From Pikeienuella piscinae (lineage in GTDB: Bacteria; Pseudomonadota; Alphaproteobacteria; Rhodobacterales; Rhodobacteraceae), in assembly GCF_011044155.1 (NCBI RefSeq), contig NZ_CP049056.1, positions 4,034,001 through 4,098,000 on the forward strand: a DNA stretch of 64,000 nucleotides, written 5' to 3'. The notes under the pieces were generated by a model, which was not told where the DNA came from, did not search any database, and saw only the letters and a list, made by a program, of their open reading frames with translations. The translations under genes and the position numbers were made by a program. Positions 1 to 39,963 of the stretch are shown here, piece after piece. Every line of letters starts with the position of its first letter. The first letter of the stretch is position 1.

Positions 1-73
1 GACCGCCGGCCAAAGACGAACCGCCCCGCCAGAGGGCGGACGCGACGACAGAGAGAGAAGGAGATTGTGAGAC

Positions 74-1552
74 ATGGCGACGGATATCGAACGTTTCGTG
101 GAGGCCGAGGGGCGCGACGAGAAGATAAAGGCGGTTCGCGCGAAGATCGACGAGCTCGGCATCGAATATCTCTACCTGCAGTTCGTGTCCGTCACCGGCA
201 AGATCATGGGCAAGGGCATCCCCTCCGACCATTGGGAGAGCGTCGCAAAAAAGGGCTTTCAGCTCGTCTATGGCGCGACGATGAACCTCTTCACCAACCG
301 GGCGGGCGAATACCTGGGCTACGGGCCTGAGGCGGCGGAGCTGATCGGCGTGCCGGAGCCGGAAACCTTCATGCAGCTGCCCTGGGCGCCGGAAATCGGG
401 CGCTTTTACTGCACGCTTTTCCGCAATCGTGAGGAAAAGGAGAATCCGGGCGGCTATCTGACCGCGGATTGCCGCGGCAACCTTCGCCGGCTGCACGAGC
501 AGTTCAAGGAAAAGCACAAGGGCCTCAGCCTTCGCATCGGCACCGAGCCGGAGATGATGTGGCTCAAGTTCGATGAGAACGGCAAACCGCGAGACGGTTA
601 TTCGAAGCCCTTCTGCTATCATATCGACCAGTTCGAAAGCCTGCGCCCGGTTTCCCTCCAGGTGATCCGCTACGCCCGGAAGATGGGCCTCGACATGATC
701 CAGGGCGACCATGAGGACGCGCCGGGCCAGCTCGAACTCAACTGGATGTTCGACGATGTGCTGCGCAACGCCGACAGGCTCACGACCTATCGCCAGATCT
801 GCGCGCAGGTGGCGCGCGAGAACGGCATCTTCGCCTGCTTCATGTCGAAACCGTTCATGGGCGTCTCGGCCTCCGGCTGCCATCACAACATGTCGCTCTG
901 GCGCGGCGGCGAGGATGAGTTCGTCAAGTGCGGGAACGACCCGGACAGCCTGCCGGGCGCGCGTGAGAATTACATGTATGTGAAGGGCGGCGACAACACC
1001 TTCATGCCCGACGGCGACGACCCGCAGATGCCGCAGAAGGCCGGGCTCGACGCGATTGGCGGCATTGTCCATCACCTGAGGGCGCTCACGGCGATCGGGT
1101 GTTCGACGGTGAACTCCTATCGCCGGCTCTGGGACACGGGTTTCTGGGCGCCGGTCTTCGCGGACTGGGGGTTCCAGAACCGCACCACCGGACTCCGGGT
1201 CTCCGCGCCCGGCCGGTTCGAATACCGTTCGGTCGACAGCATGGTGAACCCCTACATCATGGGCTCGACGATCCTCGCGGCCGCCGATGACGGGATCGAT
1301 AACAAGATCGACCCCGGCGCGCCGGAGGAGCGGAACATCTACGAGGCGATGGAGCAGGGCAAGATCGTCAAGAAACTGCCGATGTCGCTTGGCGAGGCGC
1401 TGGAGGCGCTGGAGAAGGACGAGGTCGTCCAGCGCGGCATGCCGGGCGAGATGTACCGGCTCTATCACGAGTACAAATCCGACGAGTGGGCGCGCTTCAT
1501 GTCCACCGTCACCGACTGGGACAAGGACACCTACATGGAATGTCTGCCCTGA
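74..1552 (+). CDS. gmaS: Glutamine synthetase family protein, probable gamma-glutamylmethylamide synthetase (GlnT-like)
   Basis: A 492-aa glutamine-synthetase-fold ligase. Visible motifs are TEPE (157-160), the metal/glutamate segment EDAPGQLELN (214-223), the ATP-loop equivalent SASGCHHNMSLW (265-276) and the arginine segment NSYRRL (about 347-352). It is longer than the roughly 440 aa I expect for GmaS or GlnT. The start is set by AAGGAG about 8-13 bases upstream. It lies directly upstream of mgsABC and in the same locus as tmm and tdm, so the inferred reaction is ATP-dependent ligation of methylamine to glutamate, giving gamma-glutamylmethylamide for N-methylglutamate synthase. The fold is certain. 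The substrate is inferred, because close homologues (GlnT) are annotated as ammonia ligases and sequence alone cannot separate them. Confidence 0.8.
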   Translation: MATDIERFVEAEGRDEKIKAVRAKIDELGIEYLYLQFVSVTGKIMGKGIPSDHWESVAKKGFQLVYGATMNLFTNRAGEYLGYGPEAAELIGVPEPETFMQLPWAPEIGRFYCTLFRNREEKENPGGYLTADCRGNLRRLHEQFKEKHKGLSLRIGTEPEMMWLKFDENGKPRDGYSKPFCYHIDQFESLRPVSLQVIRYARKMGLDMIQGDHEDAPGQLELNWMFDDVLRNADRLTTYRQICAQVARENGIFACFMSKPFMGVSASGCHHNMSLWRGGEDEFVKCGNDPDSLPGARENYMYVKGGDNTFMPDGDDPQMPQKAGLDAIGGIVHHLRALTAIGCSTVNSYRRLWDTGFWAPVFADWGFQNRTTGLRVSAPGRFEYRSVDSMVNPYIMGSTILAAADDGIDNKIDPGAPEERNIYEAMEQGKIVKKLPMSLGEALEALEKDEVVQRGMPGEMYRLYHEYKSDEWARFMSTVTDWDKDTYMECLP

Positions 1553-1620: not shown

Positions 1621-2556
1621 ATGTGCGGAATCGCTGGACTAATTCACAAAGGCAAGAGTTCCAATGTCGGCGGTGAGATGACCGCGATGCTGCAGGCGTT
1701 GAAGCATCGTGGGCCTGACAGCACCGGTTATGCGGTTTACGGCGCGCCGGTCGAGGGCGATTACGTCATGCGCCTCAAGGTGGCGGAGGCCGACGACATG
1801 GCCAGGGGCCGCGGCGCCCACAAGCTGATCGAGGGCCGGGTCGCCGCGGTCGACGAGATCCTCGCCGAGCATGGCGCGGAGGTGAAGTCGAAGGAGAGCG
1901 CGACCGAATACGCGCTCCGCTATGTCATCAGCCACGCCGGCGACACCGCGAAGCTGGCCGCGCATATCGAGGAGACCGGAGGCGTCGAGATCCTCTCGTT
2001 GGGCAACGGGCTGGAGCTGATCAAGGATCTCGGCGACGCCGCCGATGTCGCCGGGCTCTACGGACTCAACGAATTTCAGGGCACGCACGGCATCGGCCAC
2101 ACGCGGATGGCGACGGAATCAGATGTCGATATCCGCTCCGCGCATCCCTACTGGGCCTTTCCCTATAACGACGTCTCCGTCGTTCATAACGGCCAGATCA
2201 CCAATTACTGGAACATGCGCCGGCAGATGGAGCGTGGGGGGCACCGGTTCATGTCCGATTGCGACTCGGAGCTGCTGGCGGTCTACACCGCGCACAACCT
2301 CGCCAACGGGGTAGAGCTGGAGGACAGTCTCCGCCGGTCGATCGAGGAGATCGACGGCGTATTCACCTATCTGGTGGCGACGAAGGACCAGCTCGGCATG
2401 GCGAAGGACACGATGGCGGCGAAGCCGCTCGTTCTCTACGAGAGCGACGACATGATCGCCATGGCTTCGGAGGAGGTGGCGATCCGCGCCATCCTTCCGC
2501 AGGAAATCGACACCACCGATCCCTATGACGAGGAGGTGCGGGTATGGCGGGCGTGA
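1621..2556 (+). CDS. mgsA: N-methylglutamate synthase subunit A / GlxB-type class II glutamine amidotransferase
   Basis: A 311-aa protein that begins MCGIAG. After removal of Met the N-terminal Cys is the nucleophile of class II (Ntn) glutaminases. GIGHTRMAT (about 156-164) and HNGQITN (about 189-195) are the expected glutamine-binding elements. It corresponds to the N-terminal domain of glutamate synthase GltB, split out as a separate subunit (GlxB/MgsA). The mgsB start codon lies inside its last codons (13-base overlap), so the two are translationally coupled. Within MgsABC the inferred role is to release the amine from the gamma-glutamyl amide supplied by GmaS. A general glutamate-synthase-like role (GlxB) is the alternative. 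Confidence 0.85.
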   Translation: MCGIAGLIHKGKSSNVGGEMTAMLQALKHRGPDSTGYAVYGAPVEGDYVMRLKVAEADDMARGRGAHKLIEGRVAAVDEILAEHGAEVKSKESATEYALRYVISHAGDTAKLAAHIEETGGVEILSLGNGLELIKDLGDAADVAGLYGLNEFQGTHGIGHTRMATESDVDIRSAHPYWAFPYNDVSVVHNGQITNYWNMRRQMERGGHRFMSDCDSELLAVYTAHNLANGVELEDSLRRSIEEIDGVFTYLVATKDQLGMAKDTMAAKPLVLYESDDMIAMASEEVAIRAILPQEIDTTDPYDEEVRVWRA

Positions 2557-3431: not shown

Positions 3432-4796
3432 ATGGCTGACGGCGACATGCCAACGAAGAAGCCCCTGAACCGGGACACGTACCGGCTGGGCAATTCCTTC
3501 ATCTTCCCACCTCATGTGATGGACGACATCCATGTGAAGGCCGAACTCGGCCGCTACCGGATGCGGGGATTCTCGCTCTTCAAGAAAATCCCGCACTGGG
3601 ACGACCTGACCTTCCTGCCAGGCACGCTGACGCGGTTCGTCATCGAGGGCTATCGCGAGAAATGTGATACGAAAACGGTGATCGGGCCGCGGGCGAAACG
3701 GCCGATCGAGCTGGACATTCCGGTCTATGTGACGGGCATGAGCTTCGGCGCGCTGTCCTACGAGGCGAAGACGGCGCTGGCGCGCGGCGCGACGATGGCG
3801 GGGACGGCGACCTGCTCGGGCGAGGGCGGGATGATCCCCGACGAGCGGCGCTATTCCTCCAAATGGTTCTATCAGAACATCCAGTCGCGCTACGGCTTCA
3901 ACCCGCACCACCTGATGCTGGCGGACGGGTGCGAGTTCTTTATCGGGCAGGGCTGCAAGGTCGGGCTCGGCGGGCACTTGATGGGCCAGAAGGTGACCGA
4001 TCAGGTGGCCGAGATGCGGAGCCTGCCGGCCGGGATCGACCAGCGCTCTCCGGCCCGGCATCCGGACTGGCTGGGCCCGGACGATCTGGCGCTGAAGATC
4101 CAGGAGATCAGGGAGGCGACCGACTGGCAGATTCCGATCCAGCTCAAGCTCGGCGCCGCGCGCGTCTATGACGATGTGCGCATGGCGGTGAAGTGCGACC
4201 CGGACAGCATCTATATCGACGGCATGGAGGGCAGCACCGGGGCCGGGCCGCATCTGGCGACCGAGGATACCGGCGTTCCCGGCATGGCGGCGATCCGGCA
4301 GGCGCGCCGCGCCATCGACGATCTCGGCAAGCGGGGTGAGATTTCGCTGGTCTACGCCGGCGGGATCAGGAACGGCGCCGACGTCGCGAAGGCGATCGCG
4401 CTCGGGGCGGACGCCATCGCCCTCGGCCATTCGATGATGATGGCTCTCAATTGCAACAAGGATATTCCGGAAGCGAACTTCCAGGAGGAGATCGGCGTCG
4501 AGCCAGGGTATTGCTATCACTGCCATACCGGTCGCTGTCCGGTCGGCGTCGCGACGCAGGACCCCAAGCTGCGCGCCCGGCTCGACCCGGATGCGGCGGC
4601 GGAGCGGGTCTACAATTTCCTCCACACGCTGACCATCGAGGCGCAACTTTTCGCGCGCGCCTGCGGCAAGACCAACATCCACTCGCTGGAGCCCGAGGAC
4701 CTCGCGGCGCTCACGATGGAGTCGAGCGCGATGGCGGGGGTTCCCCTGGCCGGCACCAACATGACCGTCGGCGTCGAAGATTATCATCATCTCTGA
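3432..4796 (+). CDS. mgsC: N-methylglutamate synthase subunit C / GlxD (FMN-binding glutamate synthase domain)
   Basis: A 454-aa protein matching the FMN-binding synthase domain of GltB (TIM barrel). Features include YVTGMSFGALSYEAK (about 98-112), DGMEGSTGAGP (about 259-269), a Gly-rich phosphate-binding stretch (YAGGIRNGADVAKAIALGAD) and a Cys cluster CYHCHTGRCPVG (about 361-372) of the type that holds the 3Fe-4S cluster. It is the catalytic subunit, expected to reductively transfer the amine onto 2-oxoglutarate. It is the last recognised member of gmaS-mgsABC. A 12-base gap with an AAAGGAGG ribosome site leads into an unrecognised small gene. Confidence 0.87.
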   Translation: MADGDMPTKKPLNRDTYRLGNSFIFPPHVMDDIHVKAELGRYRMRGFSLFKKIPHWDDLTFLPGTLTRFVIEGYREKCDTKTVIGPRAKRPIELDIPVYVTGMSFGALSYEAKTALARGATMAGTATCSGEGGMIPDERRYSSKWFYQNIQSRYGFNPHHLMLADGCEFFIGQGCKVGLGGHLMGQKVTDQVAEMRSLPAGIDQRSPARHPDWLGPDDLALKIQEIREATDWQIPIQLKLGAARVYDDVRMAVKCDPDSIYIDGMEGSTGAGPHLATEDTGVPGMAAIRQARRAIDDLGKRGEISLVYAGGIRNGADVAKAIALGADAIALGHSMMMALNCNKDIPEANFQEEIGVEPGYCYHCHTGRCPVGVATQDPKLRARLDPDAAAERVYNFLHTLTIEAQLFARACGKTNIHSLEPEDLAALTMESSAMAGVPLAGTNMTVGVEDYHHL

Positions 4797-4808
4797 AAGG
4801 AGGCCGCC

Positions 4809-5222
4809 ATGGCGGGAACGCAATATCGCGGATCCGAAATCGAGGATGTCGACCAGTTCCGCAAGGACGCGAAAGGGCTCGCGTCCGAGCGCGAGAAGGA
4901 GATCGGCCAGCACATCGGCTATCGCTATGATGTCAACCTCGTCCCCGATTACGAGCGCATCACCCCGTTTCTGAAGAAATATATCGAGGTGATGGGCTGG
5001 GACGACCTCAACTGGCTCGAAGACATCCACATGGGTTACGAGGAAGGCGCCGCCGCGGTGTTCGACCGCAACATCAACGGCTGGGTCCGGGTGCCGGAGC
5101 ATATCGAACTGCCCGACAACCAGCAGGATCGCGACATGCTCGCGCGCGAGCTGCTGGTGAAGTTCCAGATGTCCGACCGTCACCCGCTCGGGACGCTGCG
5201 AAAGGCGTATTCGAAGTTCTGA
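4809..5222 (+). CDS. Conserved-looking orphan in the mgs operon, 137 aa
   Basis: I do not recognise this family. It is a soluble, charged protein without signal peptide or membrane segment. It is acidic and helix-rich at the N-terminus (about 1-45), then has aromatic-rich segments (EVMGWDDLNWLEDIHMGYEEG, WVRVPEHIELPD) and a basic C-terminal tail. It has a strong ribosome site (AAAGGAGG), starts 12 bases after mgsC and ends 16 bases before the nitrilase gene, so it is almost certainly cotranscribed. It could be an accessory or regulatory subunit of the split glutamate synthase, but there is no motif evidence for that. Confidence 0.75.
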   Translation: MAGTQYRGSEIEDVDQFRKDAKGLASEREKEIGQHIGYRYDVNLVPDYERITPFLKKYIEVMGWDDLNWLEDIHMGYEEGAAAVFDRNINGWVRVPEHIELPDNQQDRDMLARELLVKFQMSDRHPLGTLRKAYSKF

Positions 5223-5238
5223 CGAAAGGACCGAACCG

Positions 5239-6093
5239 ATGCCGACCGCTGAAATCGCCTGCCTTCAGACCCGCGTCACGCCGGATTTCGAAACCGCGCT
5301 GGCGGAGGCGCTGGGGCTGGGCGAGGAGGCGGTCGCCGCGGGCGCGGAATTCCTTCTGCTCCCGGAATATTGCGGCGGGCTGACCAGCGACGGCGCGGCC
5401 CTGCGCCCGCCCGCGGCGCCGGAGGCGGAGCATCCGGTGCTGGCGGGGCTGAGGGATTTCGCGGCGAAGCGCGGCGTCTGGCTGATGGTCGGCTCGGTCG
5501 CGGTGACGGGGCCGGGCGGCAAGATCGTGAACCGGGGTTTCGTTCTCGACGCGGCGGGCGCGATCGTCAGCCGCTATGACAAGATCCACATGTTCGACAT
5601 CCAGCTTTCCGCGGCGGAGGCGGTGCGCGAAAGCGCGCTGGTCTCGCCGGGCGATGCGGCGGTGGTGGTGGAGACGCCCTTCGGCCGCGTGGGGCACACG
5701 ATCTGTTATGATCTCAGGTTTCCGCATCTCTACCGCGACCTCGCGCAGGCCGGGGCGGAGATCCTGACCGCGCCGGCCGCCTTCACGAAAAAGACCGGCG
5801 AGGCGCACTGGCATATCCTCAACCGCGCGCGGGCGGTGGAGAACCTGGCCTGGATGGTCTCGCCCTGCGCGGTCGGGGACGTGCCCGGCGGCGGGGAAGC
5901 CTACGGCCATTCGCTGGTGGTCGCCCCCTGGGGCGACATCGTCGCCGAGGGTGGCGACGGGCCCGGCGTAGTGCGCGCCACGCTCGATCTGACGGCGCCC
6001 GCGGCGGCGCGCGAGCGGATTCCAAGTCTGGATCACGACAGGGCGTTCCGGTCCGCCGGAGCAGCGGGAAAGAGGGCTGCAAACGCCGCATAA
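5239..6093 (+). CDS. Carbon-nitrogen hydrolase (nitrilase superfamily amidase)
   Basis: A 284-aa nitrilase-superfamily enzyme with the full catalytic triad: Glu43 (LLLPEY), Lys115 (RYDKIHMFD) and Cys156 (HTICYDLRFP). YDKIHMFD and ICYDLRFPHLYR are typical of the Nit/omega-amidase branch, which hydrolyses small aliphatic amides such as 2-oxoglutaramate. It is likely cytoplasmic. It sits in the gmaS-mgs operon, 16 bases after the orphan gene. A role in hydrolysing an amide made from gamma-glutamylmethylamide, or its oxo-derivative after transamination, would fit, but that is inference. Confidence 0.85.
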   Translation: MPTAEIACLQTRVTPDFETALAEALGLGEEAVAAGAEFLLLPEYCGGLTSDGAALRPPAAPEAEHPVLAGLRDFAAKRGVWLMVGSVAVTGPGGKIVNRGFVLDAAGAIVSRYDKIHMFDIQLSAAEAVRESALVSPGDAAVVVETPFGRVGHTICYDLRFPHLYRDLAQAGAEILTAPAAFTKKTGEAHWHILNRARAVENLAWMVSPCAVGDVPGGGEAYGHSLVVAPWGDIVAEGGDGPGVVRATLDLTAPAAARERIPSLDHDRAFRSAGAAGKRAANAA

Positions 6094-6126: not shown

Positions 6127-7740
6127 ATGAGCTTGAACGAAGCGACGACAGGTGCGGGAGAAGCGCCGGGGCTTCATCGCGCGATCGGCTGGGGCCAGGC
6201 GTTCTGGCTGGCGAGCGGGGTGCCGGCGCTGGTCCTGTTTTCGATCGGCGGGATCGCGGCGACGATCGGCAACCCGTCATGGGTCGTCTGGATCCTGTCG
6301 GTGTCATTCGGCTTCATCCAGGCTTTTGTCTACGCGGAGATCGCGGGGCTTTTCCCCTCGAAGAGCGGCGGCGCCTCGGTCTACGGCGCGGCGGCGTGGG
6401 TGCGTTATGGCAAGATGATCGCGCCGCTCTCGGTCTGGTGCAACTGGCTGGCCTGGACGCCGGTGCTGGCGATCGGCGGCGGACTCGCGGCGGGGTATAT
6501 CCTGACCGTCTTCTTCGACGCGGATTCCGCGGTGCGGGCGTGGGAGATCACGTTGCTCGATCTCGGCTCGCTGAAAGAGGGCCTGACGCTGCGGATCGAC
6601 GCGACCTTCCTTCTTGGCGCGCTGATCCTGCTGGCCGTTTTCGCCATTCAGCATGGCGGCGTGCTCAGGGCGGCGAAATTCCAGATGATCGTCGGAATCG
6701 CGGTGGTCGTGCCGTTGCTGATCGTCGGCATCGTGCCGCTGATCTCCGGCGATGTGCTGGCGTCGAACCTCCTGCCGCTGAAACCGCTCGCCTTCGGACC
6801 CGACGGCGCGGTGACCGAAGGGGTCTGGGACATTCCGGGCTGGACGCTATTCCTCGGCGGTCTCTTCATCGCGGCGTGGTCGGCCTACGCCTTCGAGACG
6901 GCGATCTGCTACACGTCGGAATTCCGCAACCCGGCGTCCGACACCAGCAAGGCGATCCTGGGCGCCGGGCTGCTCTGCATCCTCGTCTACACGCTGGTTC
7001 CGCTGACCTTTCAGGGCGTACTCGGCGTCGACGGCATGTTGCAGGACGGCATCGTCGACGGCTCCGCGGTGGCGGGCGCGATGGCGGGGATGGTCGGCGG
7101 CGGCTCGTTCATCTTCGGGCTGATGGTGATCATGCTCATCCTCGCGCTTCTGCTCGCGGTGATGACGTCGATGGCGGGGTCCTCGCGCACGCTCTATCAG
7201 GGGTCGGTGGACGGCTGGCTGCCGCGCTATCTCGGCAGGGCCAACGAGCACGGCGCGCCGACGCACGCGATGTGGACCGACTTCGCCTTCAACCTCATCC
7301 TGCTGATGATGTCGGATTACCTCTTCGTGCTGGCGGTCTCCAACTGCTGTTACCTGATCTTCAACTTCCTGAACCTGAACGCGGGCTGGATTCACCGGAT
7401 CGACAGCGCCGAGACGAAACGGCCCTGGCGCTGCCCGACACCGATCATGGCGGTCGCGGTGCTGCTTTCCTTCGTCAACGCGCTGCTGCTCGGCGCCGGC
7501 GCGAATGTCTGGGGCGAGGGCACGCTGATGTCGGGCGTCATCGCCGCGGCGCTGATCCTGCCGGTGTTCGCCTTCCGCCATTACGTTCAGGACAAGGGCG
7601 TCTTTCCAAAGCAGATGCTGCTCGACCTTCATGTATCGTCGCGCGACCTCAGCATTCGACGGGCGGGCGTGAAACCTTACCTGGCGCTGGCGGCGGGTAT
7701 CGCCGTCGCCGTCTTCGGCAACATGGTGTTCCACCTGTGA
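6127..7740 (+). CDS. APC-family amino acid/amine permease
   Basis: A 537-aa polytopic membrane protein with about 12 hydrophobic segments. The N-terminal part (WGQAFWLASGVPALVLFSIGG, about 19-39) and the Ser/Gly-rich first helices match the amino acid-polyamine-organocation superfamily. The start is preceded by GAGGGAGGG. It follows the nitrilase gene by 33 bases and probably belongs to the same transcription unit. It could import methylamine, a methylated amino acid or another nitrogen compound feeding the mgs pathway. The substrate cannot be read from the sequence. Confidence 0.85.
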   Translation: MSLNEATTGAGEAPGLHRAIGWGQAFWLASGVPALVLFSIGGIAATIGNPSWVVWILSVSFGFIQAFVYAEIAGLFPSKSGGASVYGAAAWVRYGKMIAPLSVWCNWLAWTPVLAIGGGLAAGYILTVFFDADSAVRAWEITLLDLGSLKEGLTLRIDATFLLGALILLAVFAIQHGGVLRAAKFQMIVGIAVVVPLLIVGIVPLISGDVLASNLLPLKPLAFGPDGAVTEGVWDIPGWTLFLGGLFIAAWSAYAFETAICYTSEFRNPASDTSKAILGAGLLCILVYTLVPLTFQGVLGVDGMLQDGIVDGSAVAGAMAGMVGGGSFIFGLMVIMLILALLLAVMTSMAGSSRTLYQGSVDGWLPRYLGRANEHGAPTHAMWTDFAFNLILLMMSDYLFVLAVSNCCYLIFNFLNLNAGWIHRIDSAETKRPWRCPTPIMAVAVLLSFVNALLLGAGANVWGEGTLMSGVIAAALILPVFAFRHYVQDKGVFPKQMLLDLHVSSRDLSIRRAGVKPYLALAAGIAVAVFGNMVFHL

Positions 7741-7801
7741 GCGCAGCGCGGGCATCTGGCTGGCGCGCCCCGTGCGCCGGCGTCGCGCGGGGGGGATCGC
7801 C

Positions 7802-8392
7802 GTGATCTCCCTCGCCGCGGAATTCGGGATCCCGCCGGAGCGCTCGGCCCTGCGCTCCGGCTTTCTTGGCTGGCAATGCCGGGTGCGGCAGATGATGATG
7901 CGCGAGGGCGGCGGCCGACCGTCCGACGCGGTGATGCCGGAGGTTACGCTCGACGGCGAGGACGCGCCCCTCGGGCGGATCATCACGGTGCTCTCGAAAG
8001 CGCCGGCATGGTCGGTGACGCCGGAGCTGACGCATATCGCGAAAAAGACCAACGATCCGATGAAATGGAGAGAAGAGGCGCTGACCTTTTTCTCCGCGAC
8101 CTATTTTCAGCGCCCGCATGAATTTTCCGACATCCTGACGGCGAGCTTCGCGCCAGGCTCCGAAGGCGCGGCGCGGCTGCGCGCGGCGCCCGGCGTCACG
8201 CTTTCCTTCGACGCCTATGGCCAGCGCTATGATCTTTCGTGCAAGGTCTGGAAACTGGCGCGGCGCAACCCGCTGCGCGCCGCGACGATAGCGCATAACC
8301 GGCTGTTCAACCCCGCTTTGCATCCGGACGCCGATATCCTCGGCTTCGAGCCCGATTGGGAGAAATCCACCGCCGATCCCGCGCCGGCCTGA
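7802..8392 (+). CDS. Conserved hypothetical protein, about 196 aa, between permease and tmm
   Basis: I do not recognise a named family. The GTG at 7802 is preferred because GGGGGGAT precedes it and the protein then starts [29 protein letters not shown]. An upstream in-frame start exists at 7772. The protein is soluble, Arg-rich near the N-terminus, with a central segment [21 protein letters not shown] and no Cys motif or signal peptide. It starts 62 bases after the permease gene and ends 41 bases before tmm, so it may be part of the methylamine unit. Confidence 0.6.
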
Positions 8393-8432
8393 GCCGCGCC
8401 CGGCGCAAGAAGTGAAAAAAGGAGAACGAGAT

Positions 8433-9770
8433 ATGACCAGAGTGGCGATCATCGGCGCCGGCCCGTCCGGCCTCGCGCAGCTCAGGGCCTTCCAGTCCGC
8501 GAAAGCCGCCGGCGCTGAAATCCCGGAGATCGTCTGCTACGAAGCGCAAGCGAATTGGGGCGGGCTCTGGAACTATTCCTGGCGCACTGGCACCGATGAG
8601 GCGGGGTTTCCCAACCACGGTTCGATGTATCGCTATCTCTGGTCGAACGGCCCGAAAGAGGGGCTGGAATTCGCCGATTATTCCTTCGAGGAGCATTTCG
8701 GCAAGCAGATCGCCTCCTACCCGCCGCGGGCCGTGCTTTTCGACTATATCGAGGGACGGGTGAAAAAGGCCGGGGTGCGCGACTGGATCCGCTTCAACAA
8801 CCGCGTCCGCGACGTTCGCTATGACGAGGCGACCGGAAAATTCAGCCTGATCGTCCGCGATACGGTGAAGGACGCGGAAACGACCGAGGAATTCGACAAC
8901 GTCATCGTCGCCAGCGGCCATTTCTCCACGCCGAACGTGCCTTATTACCCGGGTTTCGAAAGCTTCAAGGGCCGCATCCTTCACGCCCATGACTTCCGCG
9001 ACGCGCTGGAGTTCGCAGGGCAGGACATTCTCATTCTCGGCACCTCCTATTCGGCCGAGGATATCGGCTCGCAATGCTGGAAATACGGCTGCCGCTCGGT
9101 CACCGTCGCGCACCGGACGGCGCCGATGGGCTACAAATGGCCGGAGAACTGGGCGGAGGTGCCGGCGCTGGTGCGCGTCGAAGGCAAGACCGCGCATTTC
9201 AAGGATGGGAGCAGCAGGGATGTCGACGCGATCATCCTGTGCACCGGCTACAAGCATCACTTCCCGTTCCTGCCGGACGATCTGAGGCTGAAGACCGCGA
9301 ACCGGCTGGCGACGGCGGATCTCTACAAGGGCGTCGTCTATGTTCCGAACCCGAAGCTTTTCTATCTCGGGATGCAGGACCAGTGGTTCACCTTCAACAT
9401 GTTCGACGCGCAGGCCTGGTGGGTGCGGGACTGCATCATGGGCATGATCGCGCTGCCCGACCGCGCGACGATGGAGGCGGATGTCGCCGCGCGCGTCGCC
9501 GCCGAGGACGCGCTGGAGGACGATTACGCCTGCATCTGGTATCAAGGGGACTACACGAAGGAGCTGATCGACGAGACGGATTATCCCTCCTTCGATGTCG
9601 AGGGCGCCTGCAAAGCATTCAAGGAATGGAAGGGCCACAAGAAGAAAGACATCATGAAGTTCCGCGACAATTCCTACAAATCGGTCATCACCGGCACGAT
9701 GGCGCCAAAGCATCATACGCCCTGGAAGGACGCGCTCGACGATGGGCTGGAGACCTATTTGAAGAATTAA
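8433..9770 (+). CDS. tmm: Trimethylamine monooxygenase (flavin-containing monooxygenase)
   Basis: A 445-aa class B flavin monooxygenase that oxidises trimethylamine to trimethylamine N-oxide using NADPH and O2. It has the FAD motif GAGPSGLA (8-15), the FMO signature region [13 protein letters not shown] (about 177-189), the second nucleotide-binding stretch [12 protein letters not shown] and the ILCTGY motif (about 268). Long segments such as [34 protein letters not shown] and [17 protein letters not shown] match what I recall of marine bacterial Tmm, including the conserved C-terminus [13 protein letters not shown]. The ATG at 8433 is preferred over the in-frame GTG at 8412 because AAAAGGAG lies between them. 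It is followed by tmoX. Confidence 0.93.
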
Positions 9771-10883: not shown

Positions 10884-11906
10884 ATGATGACCGGCGACGT
10901 ACAAATCAAATGCCGGAATATCTGGAAGATCTTTGGAGACGATCCGAAGGGCTTTCTCGCGCGCCACAACGGCGCGCCCGAAGACGATGCTTTCGGTGAC
11001 GAGGGGTACATCGGCGCGGTGCGCGACGTCTCCTTCGATGTGCGCCAAGGTGAGATTCTGATCATCATGGGGCTTTCGGGCTCCGGCAAGTCTACGCTGA
11101 TCCGCTGCATCACCCGGCTCAACGATCCGACCGCGGGAGAGATGGAATACGAGGGGAGGGATCTCCTGAAAGCCTCGGAGGCGGAACTGATCGATATCCG
11201 CCGTCACAAGATGGGCATGGTGTTTCAGAATTTCGGCCTGCTGCCGCATCGCGACGTGCTCTCCAACGTCGCCTTTCCGCTGGAGGTGCAAGGGGTCGCG
11301 CGCGCGAAGCGCGACGCCCGGGCGCGCGAGATGATCCAGCTGGTCGGGCTGGAGGGGCGCGAGGCCTATTTTCCGCGCCAGCTTTCCGGCGGCCAGCAGC
11401 AGCGCGTCGGCATCGCCCGCTCGCTGGCGGTGGAGCCCGACATCTGGTTCCTCGACGAGCCCTTTTCGGCGCTCGATCCGCTGATCCGGACCGAGATGCA
11501 GGATGAGTTCATCCGTCTTCAGCAGCTTCTGAAGAAGACCATCGTTTTCATCACCCATGATTTCGAGGAGGCGACCAAGCTCGCGGATCGGATCGGCATC
11601 ATGAAGGATGGGCGCATGGTGCAGCTCGCGACGCCGGAGGAGATCGTGCTGAACCCGGCTGACGAATACGTCGCCGAATTCGCCCGCAACGCGCCCCACG
11701 CGCGGATCGTCTCGGCCCGCACCATCATGGGGCCGGTTTCGGAGGGAATGGCGGCGGCGACGGTTCCGGCGGACGCCAAGATCGGCGCCATCGCGGCGCA
11801 GGTCATCGGCTCCGACGCCCCGACGCCGGTGGTGGACGAAGCGGGCGCGCCGATCGGCGCGATCACCCGCGAGACAGTCTCCGACGCTCTCTTTCGCGCG
11901 CGCTGA
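10884..11906 (+). CDS. tmoW: ABC transporter ATP-binding protein (ProV/OpuAA type)
   Basis: A 340-aa ATPase with Walker [10 protein letters not shown] (about 63-71), signature LSGGQQQR (about 171-178) and Walker B IWFLDEP (about 189-195). The Q-loop and H-loop (FITHDFEEA) are present. The C-terminal 60-70 residues look like the CBS-type regulatory extension of betaine transporters, which senses ionic strength in OpuA. It powers uptake by the double-domain permease TmoV. Its stop overlaps the TmoV start (TGATG at 11904-11908), so the two are translationally coupled. Glycine betaine import is the alternative function. Confidence 0.88.
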
Positions 11907-13885
11907 TGGAGGAGGTGAGCCAGATCCGCCACGGGGGCGCCGGGCCGACCGGGTTCTTCCACTCGATGGCCGGGCAGATCGCGCTGGTCGCGGTGTTCGG
12001 CGTCGCGCTGTCGCTGGTCTGGCCGGGCGCGACGCGCTGGCCGACGGGCTGGGTGATTCCGGCCGAGTTCTGGGTCACGGACTACATCACTTGGCTGAAA
12101 GGCGACGCGTCGATCTTCGGTGTGCCTTTCAAGGACATCACCCGCGCGTTCGGCGAGTTTCTGGAAGCGCCGGTCAACTGGTCGGATTACCTTCTGGTGC
12201 GGGGGTCGGACACGCTCGGCCTCGACCAGGTTCCGTGGGTGGCGGTGAGCGCGGGGATGGTCATCCTGGCGCACTGGGTCGGCGGCTGGAGGCTGGCGGC
12301 GCTCGCGCTTTCGACCTGTCTGTATCTCGCGTTCTTCCATCTCTGGAAGGATTCGATGCGCACCATGACCATCGTCATCGCCGCCGTGCCGATGGCGGTG
12401 CTGATCGGGCTCGGGCTCGGCGTGTGGGTCACGCGCTCGAAGCGCGCGGCGGCGGTCTTCATGCCGATGTTCGACCTGATGCAGGCGACGCCGCATCTCG
12501 CCTATCTGCCGCCCGTCGCGGCGCTCTTCTCCTTCGGTTCGGTTTCGGCGCTGATCGCGACCGTTGTCTTCGCGATGCCGCCGATGGCGCGCTGCACGAT
12601 CCTCGGGCTGCAATCGGTCTCGCCCGAGATCGTCGAGAGCGGGCGGATGTCGGGCTGCACCGGCAGGCAACTGCTCTGGAAGGTCGCGCTGCCTTCGGCG
12701 AAGCGGACGCTGATGCTCGGCGTCAACCAGGTGGTGATGCAGACCTTCGCCATGGTCGTCATCTGCTCCATCGTCGGCGCGAGCGGGCTGGGGCAGAAGC
12801 TGCTCTATTCGCTGCAACAGCTGAAGGTCGGCGCGGCGATCGAGCAGGGCCTCGCGATTACGCTGATCGCCATTGTCCTCGACCGGATCACCCAAGCCTA
12901 CGCCGACCGGCCGGTGGACTACGAACTGCGTGAGAAAAGCTGGCTGGCGCGCCATCGGCACGCGGTCATCTTCCTCGTCATCCTCGTGGTGTCCTATGTC
13001 GTCGCCGAATTCTATCGCCCGGTGGAGCTTCTGCCGCGAAAGATGACGATCAGCTTCGGCGGCGAGATGGACAGCGCGATCCGCGCGTTCAACGTCGCCG
13101 CCTTTCCCTATCTGAATCCGGTGCGCGACTGGGTGACGGTCTGGATCCTGCTGCCGATCAGGGATTTCTGCCTCTGGCTGCCGTGGCCGACCTTCGTCGG
13201 CGCCATCGCCGTCGCCGCCTGGCGGCTGGGCGGGTGGTCGGTCCTGATCCTCTGCGTCACGCTGGTGATGAGTTTCATCGTCACCGGGTTCTGGGTCGAG
13301 GCGATGAAGACGACCTATCTGGTCTTCGTCTCGACGCTGCTTTGCCTCGCGATCGGAATCCCGATCGGCATCTGGTGCGCGCGCTCGGACCCGGTGGCGA
13401 AGATCGCCCTTTCGATCTGCGACACGCTGCAGACCTTCCCATCATTCATCTACCTTATTCCGGCGATCATGCTTTTCCGCGTCGGCGATTTCGCCAATGT
13501 CGTCGCGATCATTCCCTACGCCACCGTTCCAGCGATCCGCTACACCTATCTCGGGCTGAAGCGTATCCCGCCGGTGACGGTGGAGGCGTCGATCGCCAAT
13601 GGCGCGACGCGCAGGCAACTGCTCTGGAAGGTGCAGATGCCGATCGCGCTGCCGGAGATCATGCTCGGCGTCAACCAGACGATCATGATGGCGCTGGCGA
13701 TGACCGCGATCACGGCGCTGATCGGCTCCACCGATCTGGGACAGGAGGTCGTGCGCGCCATTTCAACGCAGAACTTCGGCCGCGGCATTCTCTGCGGCTT
13801 CTTCATCGCGGCGCTCGGCATCGTCGGCGACAGGCTGATCGGGGCCTGGGCGGCGAAGCGCCGGGCCGAACTTGGGATGGGCTGA
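11906..13885 (+). CDS. tmoV: ABC transporter permease with two tandem permease domains (TmoV-like)
   Basis: A 659-aa membrane protein that carries two BPD-transporter permease domains in one chain. Each has an EAA loop: ESGRMSGCTGRQLLWKVALP (about 248-267) and EASIANGATRRQLLWKVQMP (about 562-581). The two loops are clearly homologous, showing an internal duplication, so one polypeptide can supply both transmembrane halves. This explains the lack of a second permease gene. The start shares bases with the tmoW stop. The next gene, tdm, begins one base after its stop, so the importer and the TMAO-degrading enzyme are expressed together. Confidence 0.88.
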   Translation: MEEVSQIRHGGAGPTGFFHSMAGQIALVAVFGVALSLVWPGATRWPTGWVIPAEFWVTDYITWLKGDASIFGVPFKDITRAFGEFLEAPVNWSDYLLVRGSDTLGLDQVPWVAVSAGMVILAHWVGGWRLAALALSTCLYLAFFHLWKDSMRTMTIVIAAVPMAVLIGLGLGVWVTRSKRAAAVFMPMFDLMQATPHLAYLPPVAALFSFGSVSALIATVVFAMPPMARCTILGLQSVSPEIVESGRMSGCTGRQLLWKVALPSAKRTLMLGVNQVVMQTFAMVVICSIVGASGLGQKLLYSLQQLKVGAAIEQGLAITLIAIVLDRITQAYADRPVDYELREKSWLARHRHAVIFLVILVVSYVVAEFYRPVELLPRKMTISFGGEMDSAIRAFNVAAFPYLNPVRDWVTVWILLPIRDFCLWLPWPTFVGAIAVAAWRLGGWSVLILCVTLVMSFIVTGFWVEAMKTTYLVFVSTLLCLAIGIPIGIWCARSDPVAKIALSICDTLQTFPSFIYLIPAIMLFRVGDFANVVAIIPYATVPAIRYTYLGLKRIPPVTVEASIANGATRRQLLWKVQMPIALPEIMLGVNQTIMMALAMTAITALIGSTDLGQEVVRAISTQNFGRGILCGFFIAALGIVGDRLIGAWAAKRRAELGMG

Positions 13886-13886
13886 A

Positions 13887-16259
13887 ATGGGTGTGAAGCC
13901 GGTTTTCGAGACGCCATACGAGCGGCGCGGCGTGATCGCGCCGGGGCTGCCGATTTTGCCGCACGGGGTGGAGCGCCATCCGGTGCCGGGCGGCGGCAGC
14001 CGGGCGGTGCGGATCGAGCGCGGCGACGAGATCAGCGTCGTCGACCGCGAGGGGCTGCAGCCGTGCGAACTGGTCTTCTTCGCGCCGGACGGCCGGTCCG
14101 ACGCGGGAATGATCGGCGCGAAAGGAGGGGCAGAGGCGAAGGGGCTTCAACGCGCCCTCGCCACGGGAGACGCTTCTGGGCGCCGGGTTCTGGCGGCGCT
14201 GGCGAAGAGTGGCTTCGATATCGGCCGGGCGGATGCGGTCAGGGTTTTCGACGGCGCCTCGCGCCCCGGCGACATCGCGACTTTTCATGCGGCTTCGGAT
14301 GGGCTTCTGATCGTCTGCGCGCCCGGCGGGCCGATGGCGCCGGAGGCGCAGGACGCGCCGACCGAGATCGCGCTCTATATCCGACGCGCCAATCCCGGCG
14401 AGGGGAAGGGCGCCGCCGCGCCGCCACCGCCGCTGGCGGACCCGCTGATGGACGCCAACATCCAGCCCGGAAACACGCACGCCTATGAGGTGCGGGCCGG
14501 CCAGTTCATCCAGATACTCGATGTTCAGGGGCGGGAATGCTCGGATTTTCAGGCCTTCTCCCACCGCGCGCTGGAGAAGGGGCTGGAGCGGGAGATCGAC
14601 CCGACGACAACGCGCTCGCTGATGGGCAGCCTCTATCCCGCGCCCGGCCTCTTCGCGAAATACTGGACGCTGGACCATGAGCCGTTGGTGGAGATCGTGC
14701 AGGACACCTGCGGCCGGCATGACGCCTTCAACCTCGCCTGCACGGCGCGCTATTACGAGGATCTCGGCTATCCCGGCCATGTGAACTGCTCGGACAACAT
14801 CAACGCCGATCTCGCGCGCTATGATGTCCGCCCGCGCGGCGGCTGGCCGGCGATCAACTTCTTCTTCAACACGATGCTGGACGATACGAACGCGATCACC
14901 ATGGACGACCCGTGGTCGCGCCCCGGCGATTTCGTGCTGGTCAGGGCGCTGACCGATCTGGTCTGCATCTCCTCGGCCTGCCCCTGCGATGTCGACCCGG
15001 CGAACGGTTGGAACCCGACCGACATTCAGGTTCGGATCTACGGCGCGAACGAGGATTTCCGGCGTTCGATTGGCTTTCGAAAGACCGCGGAGGCGGATGT
15101 GGAAGAGACGAAAAAGACCGGGTTTCACGATTGTTTCGCCCGGCACACCCGCGATTTCACCGCCTATAACGGCTACTGGCTGCCGGCGAAGATGCACGGG
15201 CATGGCGCGATCGCGGAATACTGGGCCTGCCGCGAGAAGGCGGTGGTGATGGATCTCAGCCCGCTCCGGAAATACGAGGTCACTGGCCCGGACTCGGAGA
15301 CATTGATGCAGCTTTGCGTCACGCGCAACATGAAGAAGCTCTCGGTCGGTCAGGTGGTCTACACCGCGATGTGCTACGAGCATGGCGGGATGATCGACGA
15401 CGGCACGGTCTACCGGCTCGGCGAGATGAATTTCCGCTGGATCGGTGGCGACGACGCCTCTGGGCTCTGGCTGCGCGAGCAGGCGGAGAAGCGCGGGCTG
15501 AACGCCTGGGTCCGCGCCTCGACCGACCAGTTGCACAACATCGCGGTGCAGGGCCGGCTGTCGCGGGAGATCCTGTCGGAGGTCATCTGGACGCCGCCGG
15601 CGCAACCGACGCTGGAGGAATTGGGCTGGTTCCGCTTCGCCGTGGGCCGGATCGGCGATATCCACGGGCCGGCGGTGGTGGTTTCGCGCACTGGCTATTC
15701 GGGCGAACTCGGCTACGAGGTGTTCTGCCATCCGAAGGACGCGGTCGCGGTGTTCGACGCGGTCTGGGCGGCGGGGGCGCCGAAGGGCATGATCCCGCTC
15801 GGCCTCCAGGCGCTCGACATGCTCCGGATCGAAGCCGGGCTGATCTTCGCGAAGAGCGAGTTTTCCGACCAGACCAACCCCTATGAGGCGGGTATCGGCT
15901 TCACCGTGCCGCTGAAGTCGAAGGAGGACGATTTCATCGGTCGCGCCGCCATCGAGGAACGGAAGGCCCATCCGCAGAGGAAAATCGTCGGACTCGATGT
16001 CGAGGGCGGCGTGGTGCCGTCGAGCGGAGATTGCCTGCGCGTCGGCAAGGCGCAGGTCGGCGAGATCACCTCGGCGATGAAATCCCCCGTTCTCGGCAAG
16101 GTGATCGCGCTGGCGCGCGTCGACGTCACCCATGCCGAGATCGGCGCGCCGATCGAGATCGGCCAGCTCGACGGCCAGCAGAAACGGCTCCGCGCCGTGG
16201 TGGCCCCCTATCCGCATTTTGACCCGCAAAAGGCGCGGGTGAAAGGCGATTACGGCTGA
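13887..16259 (+). CDS. tdm: Trimethylamine N-oxide demethylase (TMAO aldolase)
   Basis: A 790-aa fusion. The N-terminal about 400 residues include a DUF1989-type metal-binding domain with Cys-rich segments (GRECSDFQAF, QDTCGRHDAFN, SSACPCDVDPANGWNP; the CPC pair is at about 366). From about 425 onward it is a GcvT-like tetrahydrofolate-binding domain (YNGYWLPAKMHGHG through VGLDVEGG). This is the Tdm architecture: TMAO is split to dimethylamine and formaldehyde, and the C-terminal domain channels the formaldehyde to THF. The ATG at 13887 is one base after tmoV; an in-frame TTG at 13872 also exists. The last 10 bases overlap the end of the convergent LysR gene. Confidence 0.92.
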   Translation: MGVKPVFETPYERRGVIAPGLPILPHGVERHPVPGGGSRAVRIERGDEISVVDREGLQPCELVFFAPDGRSDAGMIGAKGGAEAKGLQRALATGDASGRRVLAALAKSGFDIGRADAVRVFDGASRPGDIATFHAASDGLLIVCAPGGPMAPEAQDAPTEIALYIRRANPGEGKGAAAPPPPLADPLMDANIQPGNTHAYEVRAGQFIQILDVQGRECSDFQAFSHRALEKGLEREIDPTTTRSLMGSLYPAPGLFAKYWTLDHEPLVEIVQDTCGRHDAFNLACTARYYEDLGYPGHVNCSDNINADLARYDVRPRGGWPAINFFFNTMLDDTNAITMDDPWSRPGDFVLVRALTDLVCISSACPCDVDPANGWNPTDIQVRIYGANEDFRRSIGFRKTAEADVEETKKTGFHDCFARHTRDFTAYNGYWLPAKMHGHGAIAEYWACREKAVVMDLSPLRKYEVTGPDSETLMQLCVTRNMKKLSVGQVVYTAMCYEHGGMIDDGTVYRLGEMNFRWIGGDDASGLWLREQAEKRGLNAWVRASTDQLHNIAVQGRLSREILSEVIWTPPAQPTLEELGWFRFAVGRIGDIHGPAVVVSRTGYSGELGYEVFCHPKDAVAVFDAVWAAGAPKGMIPLGLQALDMLRIEAGLIFAKSEFSDQTNPYEAGIGFTVPLKSKEDDFIGRAAIEERKAHPQRKIVGLDVEGGVVPSSGDCLRVGKAQVGEITSAMKSPVLGKVIALARVDVTHAEIGAPIEIGQLDGQQKRLRAVVAPYPHFDPQKARVKGDYG

Positions 16260-17281: not shown

Positions 17282-18424
17282 ATGAACGCCCCGACCCTGA
17301 CTCTCCAGAATGACGACCGGCCGTTTCGCACCGACCCGCAACGCTCCTTCACCCTTCCGGCGCGCTTCTATCACGACCCGATGATTTACGAGGCGGAGAA
17401 ACCGGCGATCTTCTATCGAAGCTGGCACTATGCCGGCCATGTCAGCCAGGTGGCGGAACCGGGCCAGTACCTGACGACGAAGATTCACGAGCAGAATGTC
17501 TTTGTCGCGCGCGGGCGTGATGGCGTGTTGCGCGCCTTCTACAATGTCTGCGCCCATCGTGGGCACGAGCTGCTCGAAGGGACGGGGAAAAGGAACGTCA
17601 TCACCTGCCCCTATCACGCCTGGGCGTTCGATTTCGACGGACGGCTGGTGAGCGCCCGCAATTCCGAGAATGTCGCCGGGTTCGACAAATGCGATTTCTC
17701 ACTGAAGCCGGTGCGGGTGGAGCTCTTTTGCGGCCTGGTGATGATCAATCTCGATCCGGACGCGAAACCGTTCAGCGAGGAATTTGACGGACTTGAGGCC
17801 GAAATCCGCGCCTACCTGCCTTCGGTCGATACGCTGGCCTATGCGCAGCGTGACACCTACGATGTCGCCGCCAACTGGAAGGTGCTCGTCGACAATTTCC
17901 TCGAATGCTATCATTGCCAGAACGCGCACCGGGATTTCGTCGATCTGGTGGACATGGGCAGTTACCGGACCATAACCCACAAGCGCTACTCCGCCCAGTG
18001 CGCCGCCGCGCCCCGCACCACGACCAGCAATGCCTTCTCCTTCACTCCGGGCGAGGTGGATTTCGGCTATGCCGGGTTCTTCGTCTGGCCGAATATCACC
18101 ATCTGGATCTATCCGGGGGAGCCGAATCTATCGGTCCTGCAGATGAACCCCGCGGGGCCGGAGCGCTGCGTCGAGCATCAGGACTGGTTCACGCCGGGCG
18201 GAGCGGTCACGGCGCAACTGAAAGACGCGATCGCCTATCAGAAGGACGTGCTGCAGCCGGAGGATATAGGTCTTTGCGAAAGCGTGCAGCGCGGGCTGAA
18301 ATCGCGCGGTTACAATCAGGGCCGGTTCATCGTCGATCAGGGCCTGACGGAACTCTCCGAACACGCGGTTCACCATTTCCAGACCATGGTGGCCGAGGCG
18401 CTGGGCGCGGAGTTCGACGAATGA
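17282..18424 (+). CDS. Rieske non-heme iron oxygenase alpha subunit, glycine betaine/carnitine monooxygenase type
   Basis: A 380-aa ring-hydroxylating-oxygenase-type alpha subunit. The Rieske 2Fe-2S motif is C-A-H followed later by C-P-Y-H (about 90-112), and the mononuclear iron site is NFLECYHCQNAH (about 204-215). The residue bridging the two centres is Glu (FLEC) rather than the usual Asp. That is characteristic of the branch acting on quaternary amines, such as glycine betaine demethylase GbcA and carnitine oxygenase CntA. No reductase gene adjoins it, so the electron donor must be encoded elsewhere. It fits the methylated-amine theme of the region. Glycine betaine is the likeliest substrate, with stachydrine or carnitine as alternatives. 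Confidence 0.82.
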   Translation: MNAPTLTLQNDDRPFRTDPQRSFTLPARFYHDPMIYEAEKPAIFYRSWHYAGHVSQVAEPGQYLTTKIHEQNVFVARGRDGVLRAFYNVCAHRGHELLEGTGKRNVITCPYHAWAFDFDGRLVSARNSENVAGFDKCDFSLKPVRVELFCGLVMINLDPDAKPFSEEFDGLEAEIRAYLPSVDTLAYAQRDTYDVAANWKVLVDNFLECYHCQNAHRDFVDLVDMGSYRTITHKRYSAQCAAAPRTTTSNAFSFTPGEVDFGYAGFFVWPNITIWIYPGEPNLSVLQMNPAGPERCVEHQDWFTPGGAVTAQLKDAIAYQKDVLQPEDIGLCESVQRGLKSRGYNQGRFIVDQGLTELSEHAVHHFQTMVAEALGAEFDE

Positions 18425-38227: not shown

Positions 38228-38334
38228 CGGCGCGAGAGTTGGCGCCCGGGCGACGAAAGGTCAACGTCTCCGAATTTCATCGCGCCGGGCCGCCGAAACC
38301 GGTAGGGTGCCCCTATCCGACCGGAGGTCATTCA

Positions 38335-39963
38335 ATGTCGCGCGCCGCGCCGAACGTGCTTTTCATCCATCCGAAGTTCTCGAACACGTCCTTCTGGAAT
38401 TATGTCGAGACCTGCGAGCTCGTCGGCGCGAAATACCCCGCGCCGCCCCTCGGGCTGATCACCGTCGCGGCGATGTTGCCTGAGAGCTGGCGGGTGCGTC
38501 TTGTCGACCGCAATGTCGCCGAACTGACCGACGAGGAGATCGACGCCGCCGATCTCGTCATGTTCGGCGGTATGATCACCCAGCAGATGGACCTGCTGGC
38601 GACAGCCGCGCGAGCGAAGGCGCGCGGAAAGATCACCGTCGTCGGCGGGCCGGACGTCTCCTCCTCGCCGGAGATATACGCCGATCTCGACTTCCGCATC
38701 ATCGGAGAGGCGGAGGGCGCGATCGACGCGTTCATCGACGCATGGGAAACCGGCGCCTCGGAAGGCGAATTTCGCGCGCCGCTTCATTCGATCGATGTCA
38801 CCAAGACACCGAATCCGCGCTTCGATCTGCTGAATTTCTCCAATTACGTTCAGCTCAATGTCCAGTTTTCCCGCGGCTGCCCGTTTCTGTGCGAATTCTG
38901 CGACATCATCGAGCTTTTCGGCCGCAAGCCCCGCACCAAGGACACCGCGCAGATCCTCGCAGAGCTCGACCGCATCTACGCGCTCGGCTATCGCGGTCAT
39001 GTCGATTTCGTCGACGACAACCTGATCGGCAACAAGAAGGCGGTGAAACTCTTCCTGCCGCACCTCGTCGATTGGCAGAAACGCCACGGCTACCCGTTCG
39101 AGTTCTCCACCGAGGCTTCGCTGAACCTCGCCGATGACGACGAATTTCTCGGCATGATGCGCGACGCCGGATTCTTCGCCTGTTTCGTCGGCATCGAAAG
39201 CCCGGACCCGGACGTGCTGGTCGCGATGCAGAAGAAGCAGAACACCAAGCGCGACATCGCGTCGTGCATCCACAAGATCAACACCTACGGCATCTTCATC
39301 GTCGCCGGTTTCATCGTCGGTTTCGACAACGAGAGCGAACTGGCCTCCGAAGGCATGATCGAGTTGATCGAGGAGGCGTCGATTCCGGTCTCCATGGTCG
39401 GGCTCCTCGTCGCGCTTCCCAACACCCAACTCCAGCGGCGGCTGGAGAAGGAACAGCGCCTGCACGACCTTTTCGGCGTGATCGAGGATGAGCAGGACGG
39501 CGACCAGTGCGTCTCCGGCCTGAATTTCGAGACATTGAGGCCCCGCGCCGATATCCTCGAGCAATATCTTAAGGTGGTGAAGCGGATTTACGAACCTGCG
39601 AACTACTTCGCGCGGGTGCGCAAGACGGTCGAGCTGCTCGATTGTTCCGGCGTCGTCGGCGATCTCCGCCGCTCGACCATCCGTCATGACGTCAAGCAGT
39701 TCATTCAGTTCCTCTGGAACATCACCGTCAAACGCCCCGACATGCGAGGCCATGTGTGGCGCCTCCTCGCCCATGTCCTGCGCAAGAACCCCCGCGCGAT
39801 CAAGCACGCGCTCTACACTGCGGGTCTTTACGCCCATCTCGGCCCGTTCGCGCAATATGTGCAGCGCGAGATGGCAAGTCAGATCGCGGCGGTGAAAGCC
39901 GACCCGAACGCCCCGCGGCATCGGACTTTCAGAGGGAAACTGGAAGGGGTCGCGGCGGAATAG
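38335..39963 (+). CDS. B12-binding radical SAM protein with DUF4070 C-terminus, HpnP-like
   Basis: A 542-aa protein: a N-terminal cobalamin-binding Rossmann domain (about 1-150), then a radical SAM domain with the 4Fe-4S motif CPFLCEFC (C-x3-C-x2-C, about 182-189), then a DUF4070-type C-terminus (about 400-500). IIELFGRKPRTK, DFVDDNLIGNKKAV and FEFSTEASLNLADDDE strongly recall hopanoid C-2 methylase HpnP. No squalene-hopene cyclase or other hpn gene is in the window, so methylation of a different lipid or metabolite is equally possible. The ATG at 38335 follows GGAGG. Confidence 0.75.
   Translation: MSRAAPNVLFIHPKFSNTSFWNYVETCELVGAKYPAPPLGLITVAAMLPESWRVRLVDRNVAELTDEEIDAADLVMFGGMITQQMDLLATAARAKARGKITVVGGPDVSSSPEIYADLDFRIIGEAEGAIDAFIDAWETGASEGEFRAPLHSIDVTKTPNPRFDLLNFSNYVQLNVQFSRGCPFLCEFCDIIELFGRKPRTKDTAQILAELDRIYALGYRGHVDFVDDNLIGNKKAVKLFLPHLVDWQKRHGYPFEFSTEASLNLADDDEFLGMMRDAGFFACFVGIESPDPDVLVAMQKKQNTKRDIASCIHKINTYGIFIVAGFIVGFDNESELASEGMIELIEEASIPVSMVGLLVALPNTQLQRRLEKEQRLHDLFGVIEDEQDGDQCVSGLNFETLRPRADILEQYLKVVKRIYEPANYFARVRKTVELLDCSGVVGDLRRSTIRHDVKQFIQFLWNITVKRPDMRGHVWRLLAHVLRKNPRAIKHALYTAGLYAHLGPFAQYVQREMASQIAAVKADPNAPRHRTFRGKLEGVAAE

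Follow-up and report, generated by a model that had tools for sequence, protein, structure and literature searches.

A small protein that accompanies one clade of MgsC proteins and its possible place in a dimethylamine-handling gene cluster

The known N-methylglutamate synthase converts glutamate and methylamine into N-methylglutamate and ammonia, a redox-neutral reaction that needs no electron input. The described MgsABC and GmaS systems, of the Methyloversatilis, M. extorquens and Roseobacter type, combine a ligase with class II amidotransferase, GXGXG and FMN subunits, and M. extorquens mgsABC by itself yields N-methylglutamate in P. putida (PMC6237917). Genes for Tmm, Tdm and GmaS are reported in 20–25% of marine bacteria, whereas dmmDABC occurs rarely and is missing in SAR11; SAR11 with Tmm, Tdm and GmaS but without dmmDABC have been described as a metabolic bottleneck that leaves dimethylamine for marine aerosol (PMC5520151). 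Strain HTCC1062, which lacks Dmm, is nevertheless discussed as able to grow with TMAO as nitrogen source, with mention of a possible 'isoenzyme of DmmDABC' (PMC8918994). We found no description of a dimethylglutamate or dimethylamine ligase route in the literature.

The window, as we call the whole 64,000-nucleotide stretch of DNA analysed, carries a related gene set whose members are written here with a prime (Table 1). The cluster order is the SoxB-like oxidoreductase (often), GmaS', MgsA'B'C' and a 137-aa protein, whose ORF starts with ATG and ends with TGA. Like the described systems, the cluster joins a ligase to amidotransferase, GXGXG and FMN subunits, and GmaS' has all the published catalytic residues of RhGmaS. 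Unlike in the canonical loci, GmaS' is about 30% and MgsC' 50–55% identical to the canonical proteins, MgsC' carries Fe-S cysteines, MgsB' is longer, the 137-aa protein is always present and a SoxB-like oxidoreductase often lies upstream; the cluster and the canonical set often coexist in one genome. Amidotransferase, FMN/Fe-S and GXGXG modules are also shared with GOGAT GltB and its split GlxBCD-type relatives. In contrast to GltB, however, the cluster is split into three genes, lacks the central domain, has no GltD partner within it and comes with an alkylamine ligase and with the 137-aa protein. An earlier, sequence-only reading had placed the small gene in a 'gmaS-mgsABC operon'; the amidotransferase, GXGXG and FMN genes do lie in one operon, but they and the ligase are paralogues and not the characterised set.

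Table 1. Coordinates of the cluster and its surroundings (window positions unless a locus is named)
Feature	Position	Strand	Remarks
SoxB-like FAD oxidoreductase, 447 aa	L160:18659-19999; last stop-codon bases at window 1..2	+	PF01266 DAO
GmaS', glutamine-synthetase-fold alkylamine ligase (predicted)	74..1552	+	~30% identical to characterised GmaS; catalytic/amine-pocket residues kept
MgsA', class II glutamine amidotransferase	1621..2556	+	N-terminal Cys2 (MCGIAGL)
MgsB', GXGXG beta-helix subunit, 289 aa	2544..3413	+	~50-60 residues longer than canonical MgsB
MgsC', FMN-binding glutamate synthase domain	3432..4796	+	invariant C-x2-C-x4-C motif
Intergenic gap, 12 bases	4797..4808	+	between the mgsC' stop (ends 4796) and the 137-aa ORF
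137-aa protein (P0001), putative fourth MgsA'B'C' subunit	4809..5222	+	ORF, survey, adjacency, conservation
Nitrilase-superfamily amidase (CN_hydrolase)	5239..6093	+	near the 137-aa gene in 69/80 loci, optional
TMAO permease	6127..7740	+	NF053774
206-aa protein	7772..8392	+	no Pfam/NCBIfam/PHROGs match; near the 137-aa gene in 78/80 loci
Trimethylamine monooxygenase Tmm	8412..9770	+	NF058570
TMAO ABC transporter ATPase and permease, TmoV/TmoW-like	10884..13885	+	
TMAO demethylase Tdm, dimethylamine source	13872..16259	+	DUF1989 + GCV_T

Against TIGR03105 (type III glutamate--ammonia ligase; cut-off 470 bits), the window GmaS' scores 308 bits and the true GmaS of locus L143 scores 667; the percentage identity given above was obtained with RhGmaS (PDB 7cql). 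When aligned using the list of RhGmaS catalytic and methylamine-pocket residues (PMC7948447), GmaS' keeps K30, Y147, Q175, D177, E179, E186, N188, R312 and W300 in 68–70 of 70 loci, and this Trp stands where glutamine synthetase has its flap Glu. Given that every listed residue is retained, GmaS' should be an alkylamine ligase; judged from these residues, its amine pocket does not tell mono- from dimethylamine. True GmaS is missing from the window genome but present in 11 of the 13 other carrier genomes examined, and thus the GmaS' set constitutes a second, parallel cluster rather than simply the GmaS of these bacteria. Canonical-type MgsC is present in 18 of the 37 carriers of the 137-aa protein, and in two genomes (G030 and G337) the GmaS'/MgsA'B'C' system adjoins the true GmaS system.

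The C-x2-C-x4-C motif was found in every MgsC' covering the site, its three cysteines preceding PVG-ATQ as in the GltB-type [3Fe-4S] motif. In GltB, the first cysteine is spaced as C-x5-C, unlike the C-x2-C of MgsC'. These Fe-S cysteines are gone from the MgsC encoded beside true GmaS, Dmm and Tmm, and at two such loci (L170:10457-11911 and L171:9576-10910) AYDDWHEG-DPAG replaces CYHCHTGRCPVG. Other members of this second MgsC clade keep CHHCHTGKCPVG, so that clade mixes at least two kinds. Considering that the canonical reaction is redox-neutral, the cluster kept in MgsC' suggests that MgsA'B'C' may trade electrons with an outside partner.

Several lines of evidence show that the 137-aa ORF is a real gene. 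The sequence AAAGGAGG, which begins at the final base of the mgsC' stop, forms a Shine-Dalgarno site 5 bases ahead of the ATG, and 16 bases separate the ORF from the nitrilase start. The strong ribosome site and the 12- and 16-base gaps between mgsC and the nitrilase that had been claimed from the sequence are thus confirmed. In codon comparisons with eight orthologues, changes were mostly synonymous (for example, 53 synonymous and 18 non-synonymous codons) and fell mainly at third codon positions (12/6/68 by codon position in one such comparison), which indicates a real protein under strong purifying selection. The C-terminal 110 residues hardly differ between large genomes and one of 1.2 Mb, and the N-terminus is variable; R39, D41, D66, E71, D72, H74, R87, R108, R113 and E114 are among the many invariant polar residues. 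The gene is single copy in the window genome, and its product there contains no Cys, is acidic (pI 5.1) and lacks any cofactor motif. Median identity among orthologues is 85%, compared with 83–92% for MgsA', MgsB', MgsC' and GmaS' and 57–63% for optional neighbours.

Searches of Pfam, NCBIfam and PHROGs returned no match to the 137-aa protein up to E = 1, which upholds the earlier statement that no domain is visible. Sequence searches of the PDB gave nothing convincing, with a best E of 0.05 for the single sequence and 0.014 for a profile of 16 diverse orthologues; the latter match, to Toxoplasma TLAP2, was dismissed as chance. AlphaFold2 modelled the protein alone (68 close orthologues) with a pLDDT of 72 as helices and a small three-stranded sheet, for which the best PDB fold matches were meaningless (Foldseek E 1.2, VIA-align Z 2.2). 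MgsB', MgsC' and the 137-aa protein share one reading frame in the window, and an AlphaFold2 model of their in-frame read-through (TGA read as W, 99 rows) reached a pLDDT of 51, low also within MgsC'. Among the loci read, no fusion of the 137-aa protein to MgsC was seen; some GC-rich loci contain long open frames, which do not share the reading frame of MgsC and were rejected as fusions. The viral contigs and plasmids searched held no copy.

The distribution of the 137-aa protein follows a single MgsC clade. Window-type MgsC, 79–93% identical to the MgsC of the window, was detected in 38 of the 385 genomes of the class that were surveyed, and the 137-aa protein occurs in 37 of these and in none of the remaining genomes (Fisher 7e-51; as the surveyed genomes share ancestry, p-values are indicative and overstate independence). 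In the sole discrepant genome (G173), the MgsC gene is cut by the contig edge, with a ribosome site and start codon visible before the break. In a second sample, from another class, the protein stands behind window-type MgsC in 13/13 genomes and behind the paralogue MgsC in 0/17 loci. Members of the other MgsC/GlxD-like clade, 49–55% identical to that of the window, had no 137-aa protein next to them in the loci read (those 17 together with L170 and L171), and the two identity classes separate without overlap. The gene lies directly after MgsC', on the same strand, in 135/135 loci (some of them fetched twice), with a median gap of 14 bases. Orthologues occurring only outside mgs loci, which the sequence-only reading had named as evidence against its proposal, did not appear in this neighbourhood check; none was seen away from such mgs-type loci.

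We regard the 137-aa protein, with high confidence, as a dedicated partner of MgsC'. Since the canonical loci read lack it and M. extorquens mgsABC is sufficient (PMC6237917), it does not complete the known enzyme. The earlier proposal of a subunit completing the split N-methylglutamate synthase holds with regard to the strict one-to-one link with an MgsC clade, but the synthase in question is a distinct Fe-S-type paralogue. Slow evolution, a link to one MgsC clade without exception and the absence of a cofactor motif make a fourth subunit the simplest reading, and on these grounds it is rather probable that the protein is physically part of MgsA'B'C'. Similarity-based 'gmaS-mgsABC' labels lump together two different systems, for which the 137-aa protein offers a clean distinguishing marker.

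In the same 385 genomes, the 137-aa protein co-occurs with Tdm: both were detected in 26, the protein without Tdm in 11, Tdm without the protein in 8 and neither in 340 (7e-25). The Dmm haem subunit was sought in all 45 genomes with Tdm and/or the 137-aa protein, true Dmm being judged by identity and a reductase neighbour. It was found in 0/26 Tdm genomes that carry the protein and in 4/8 that lack it (G159, G252, G283 and G310; p = 0.0015, with genomes that share ancestry). No carrier of the protein had a true Dmm, and the fetched carrier loci held no Dmm haem or reductase genes. Dmm and the cluster therefore look like alternatives. One Tdm genome (G335) has neither. The matches in G030 and G337 are weak (51–59 bits). 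A PF11927 match also pointed to the window genome as a Dmm owner, and this was rejected, as the HODM_asu-like product shares only 25% identity with the Dmm haem subunit and a search beside the gene found no Dmm reductase; this solitary gene is at L168:5564-6331 (G000:C1:1065563-1066330).

A complete genome of 1.2 Mb, 33% GC and a single contig (G207) encodes, in order, Tdm, an oxidoreductase, GmaS', MgsA', MgsB', MgsC', the 137-aa protein and amt. True GmaS is present in this genome and a canonical MgsC match is absent, so MgsA'B'C' may also serve monomethylamine there. This arrangement is compatible with the order of published HTCC1062 tags, in which 1302 is opuAC, 1303 GcvT-like, 1304 monomeric sarcosine oxidase, 1305 glnT, 1309 hypothetical and 1310 amt (PMC3160333, PMC5069961, PMC2704228). 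From position, SAR11_1309 is predicted to be the orthologue of the 137-aa protein, and SAR11_1304 is likely the SAR11 counterpart of the SoxB-like oxidoreductase of the window. The cluster occupies the place of the missing Dmm and supplies named candidate genes for it.

In our main reading, an Fe-S-type MgsA'B'C' within a dimethylamine-handling cluster has the 137-aa protein as its dedicated partner and most likely as a fourth small subunit; from the sequence evidence, we put the probability of this reading at about 0.5. That the cluster follows a dimethylamine route at all falls slightly short of an even chance. More tentatively still, we propose an undescribed Dmm-free route made up of Tdm, GmaS', MgsA'B'C'D (the 137-aa protein being D) and the SoxB-like oxidoreductase, running via gamma-glutamyldimethylamide and N,N-dimethylglutamate. 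Tdm would free dimethylamine from TMAO, and GmaS' would couple it to the gamma-carboxyl of glutamate. MgsA' would then liberate the amine and channel it to the FMN site of MgsC'/MgsB', where its condensation with 2-oxoglutarate and reduction would give N,N-dimethylglutamate; the electrons would presumably enter via the iron-sulphur cluster of MgsC'. The SoxB-like oxidoreductase and/or Mgd would demethylate this product, and the 137-aa protein may bind MgsC' and give shape to its amine channel or to the face where electrons enter. In the pathway, the cluster would take the position of DmmDABC (HODM type) and remove the dimethylamine that Tdm produces. Unlike DmmDABC, the cluster has no haem, ferredoxin reductase or DmmD genes, and a ligase/synthase route is proposed instead. 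If this is true, a monooxygenase-free route replaces Dmm in SAR11 and many TMAO-using marine bacteria, closing the reported dimethylamine gap.

Among the points against a subunit acting in a dimethylamine route, Tdm is missing from 11 carriers, and the canonical mgsABC enzyme functions with no protein of this kind (PMC6237917). The first of these would fit a cluster whose substrate is some other secondary or N-methylated amine, taken up or produced in these genomes, with Dmm exclusion reflecting lineage history alone. Some Roseovarius loci, where TMA/TMAO genes are absent over 8 kb around the cluster and apparent ectoine genes follow it, also suit this explanation, yet 26/34 Tdm genomes carry the 137-aa protein, and the cluster adjoins Tdm in a very small genome and lies close to it in the window; we consider another amine rather improbable. 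It is also unlikely, though somewhat less so, that the protein keeps its subunit role in what is a monomethylamine isozyme set, with GmaS' and MgsA'B'C' producing N-methylglutamate. The entire monomethylamine pocket of RhGmaS is retained in GmaS', the window genome is without a true GmaS, and any monomethylamine use in the 1.2-Mb genome, lacking canonical MgsC, would run through MgsA'B'C'. However, the frequency of true GmaS and of canonical-type MgsC among carriers argues against an isozyme, as does the lack of Dmm in carriers although Tdm supplies most of them with dimethylamine. The Km values of RhGmaS, 27 uM for monomethylamine and 16 mM for dimethylamine (PMC7948447), likewise make a second monomethylamine ligase hard to justify.

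Other explanations concern the 137-aa protein itself. Rather than a stable subunit, it could be a small enzyme in its own right, or a factor that helps MgsC' to assemble or mature by inserting FMN or Fe-S. The failure of PDB searches to find a fold or subunit homologue, the predicted helices with a three-stranded sheet and the many invariant polar residues would all suit such a protein, but the strict one-to-one link with an MgsC clade and the slow rate of change suit a structural partner better, and we hold this alternative to be about as unlikely as the monomethylamine isozyme. A general servant of the Fe-S site was rejected: paralogous MgsC that keep the Cys motif (e.g. at L133, L144 and L145) lack the protein, so the Fe-S cluster alone does not require it. 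A regulator, for instance of synthase activity by nitrogen status, would be compatible with a small, acidic protein without a cofactor motif; given that Pfam, NCBIfam and the fold search show no likeness to PII or other regulators and that conservation is even over the C-terminal 110 residues, this is very improbable.

Besides the core genes, the surroundings of the cluster vary. The SoxB-like oxidoreductase adjoins gmaS' upstream in 26/62 loci and, in addition, in small Tdm-bearing genomes. Further upstream, at L160:17061-18644, a GntR-type regulator is encoded together with a class I amidotransferase, with similar genes upstream in L070 and L081, and the GntR-type protein is likely a dedicated regulator. 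The nitrilase-superfamily amidase is close to deaminated glutathione amidase and did not turn up in the small genomes; its role may be the hydrolysis of a glutamyl amide formed as a side product. The fast-evolving 206-aa protein (median identity 57%) is encoded within about 2–4 kb of the 137-aa gene, in either orientation across loci, and a distant copy adjoins true GmaS in G030 and G337. After Tdm and a LysR-type regulator, window positions 17282-18424 encode a Rieske oxygenase with a weak match to the glycine betaine monooxygenase GbcA (157 bits, cut-off 670). At 38239-39963 lies a gene for a radical SAM protein, a distant relative of the PhpK P-methyltransferase family (86 bits, cut-off 600).
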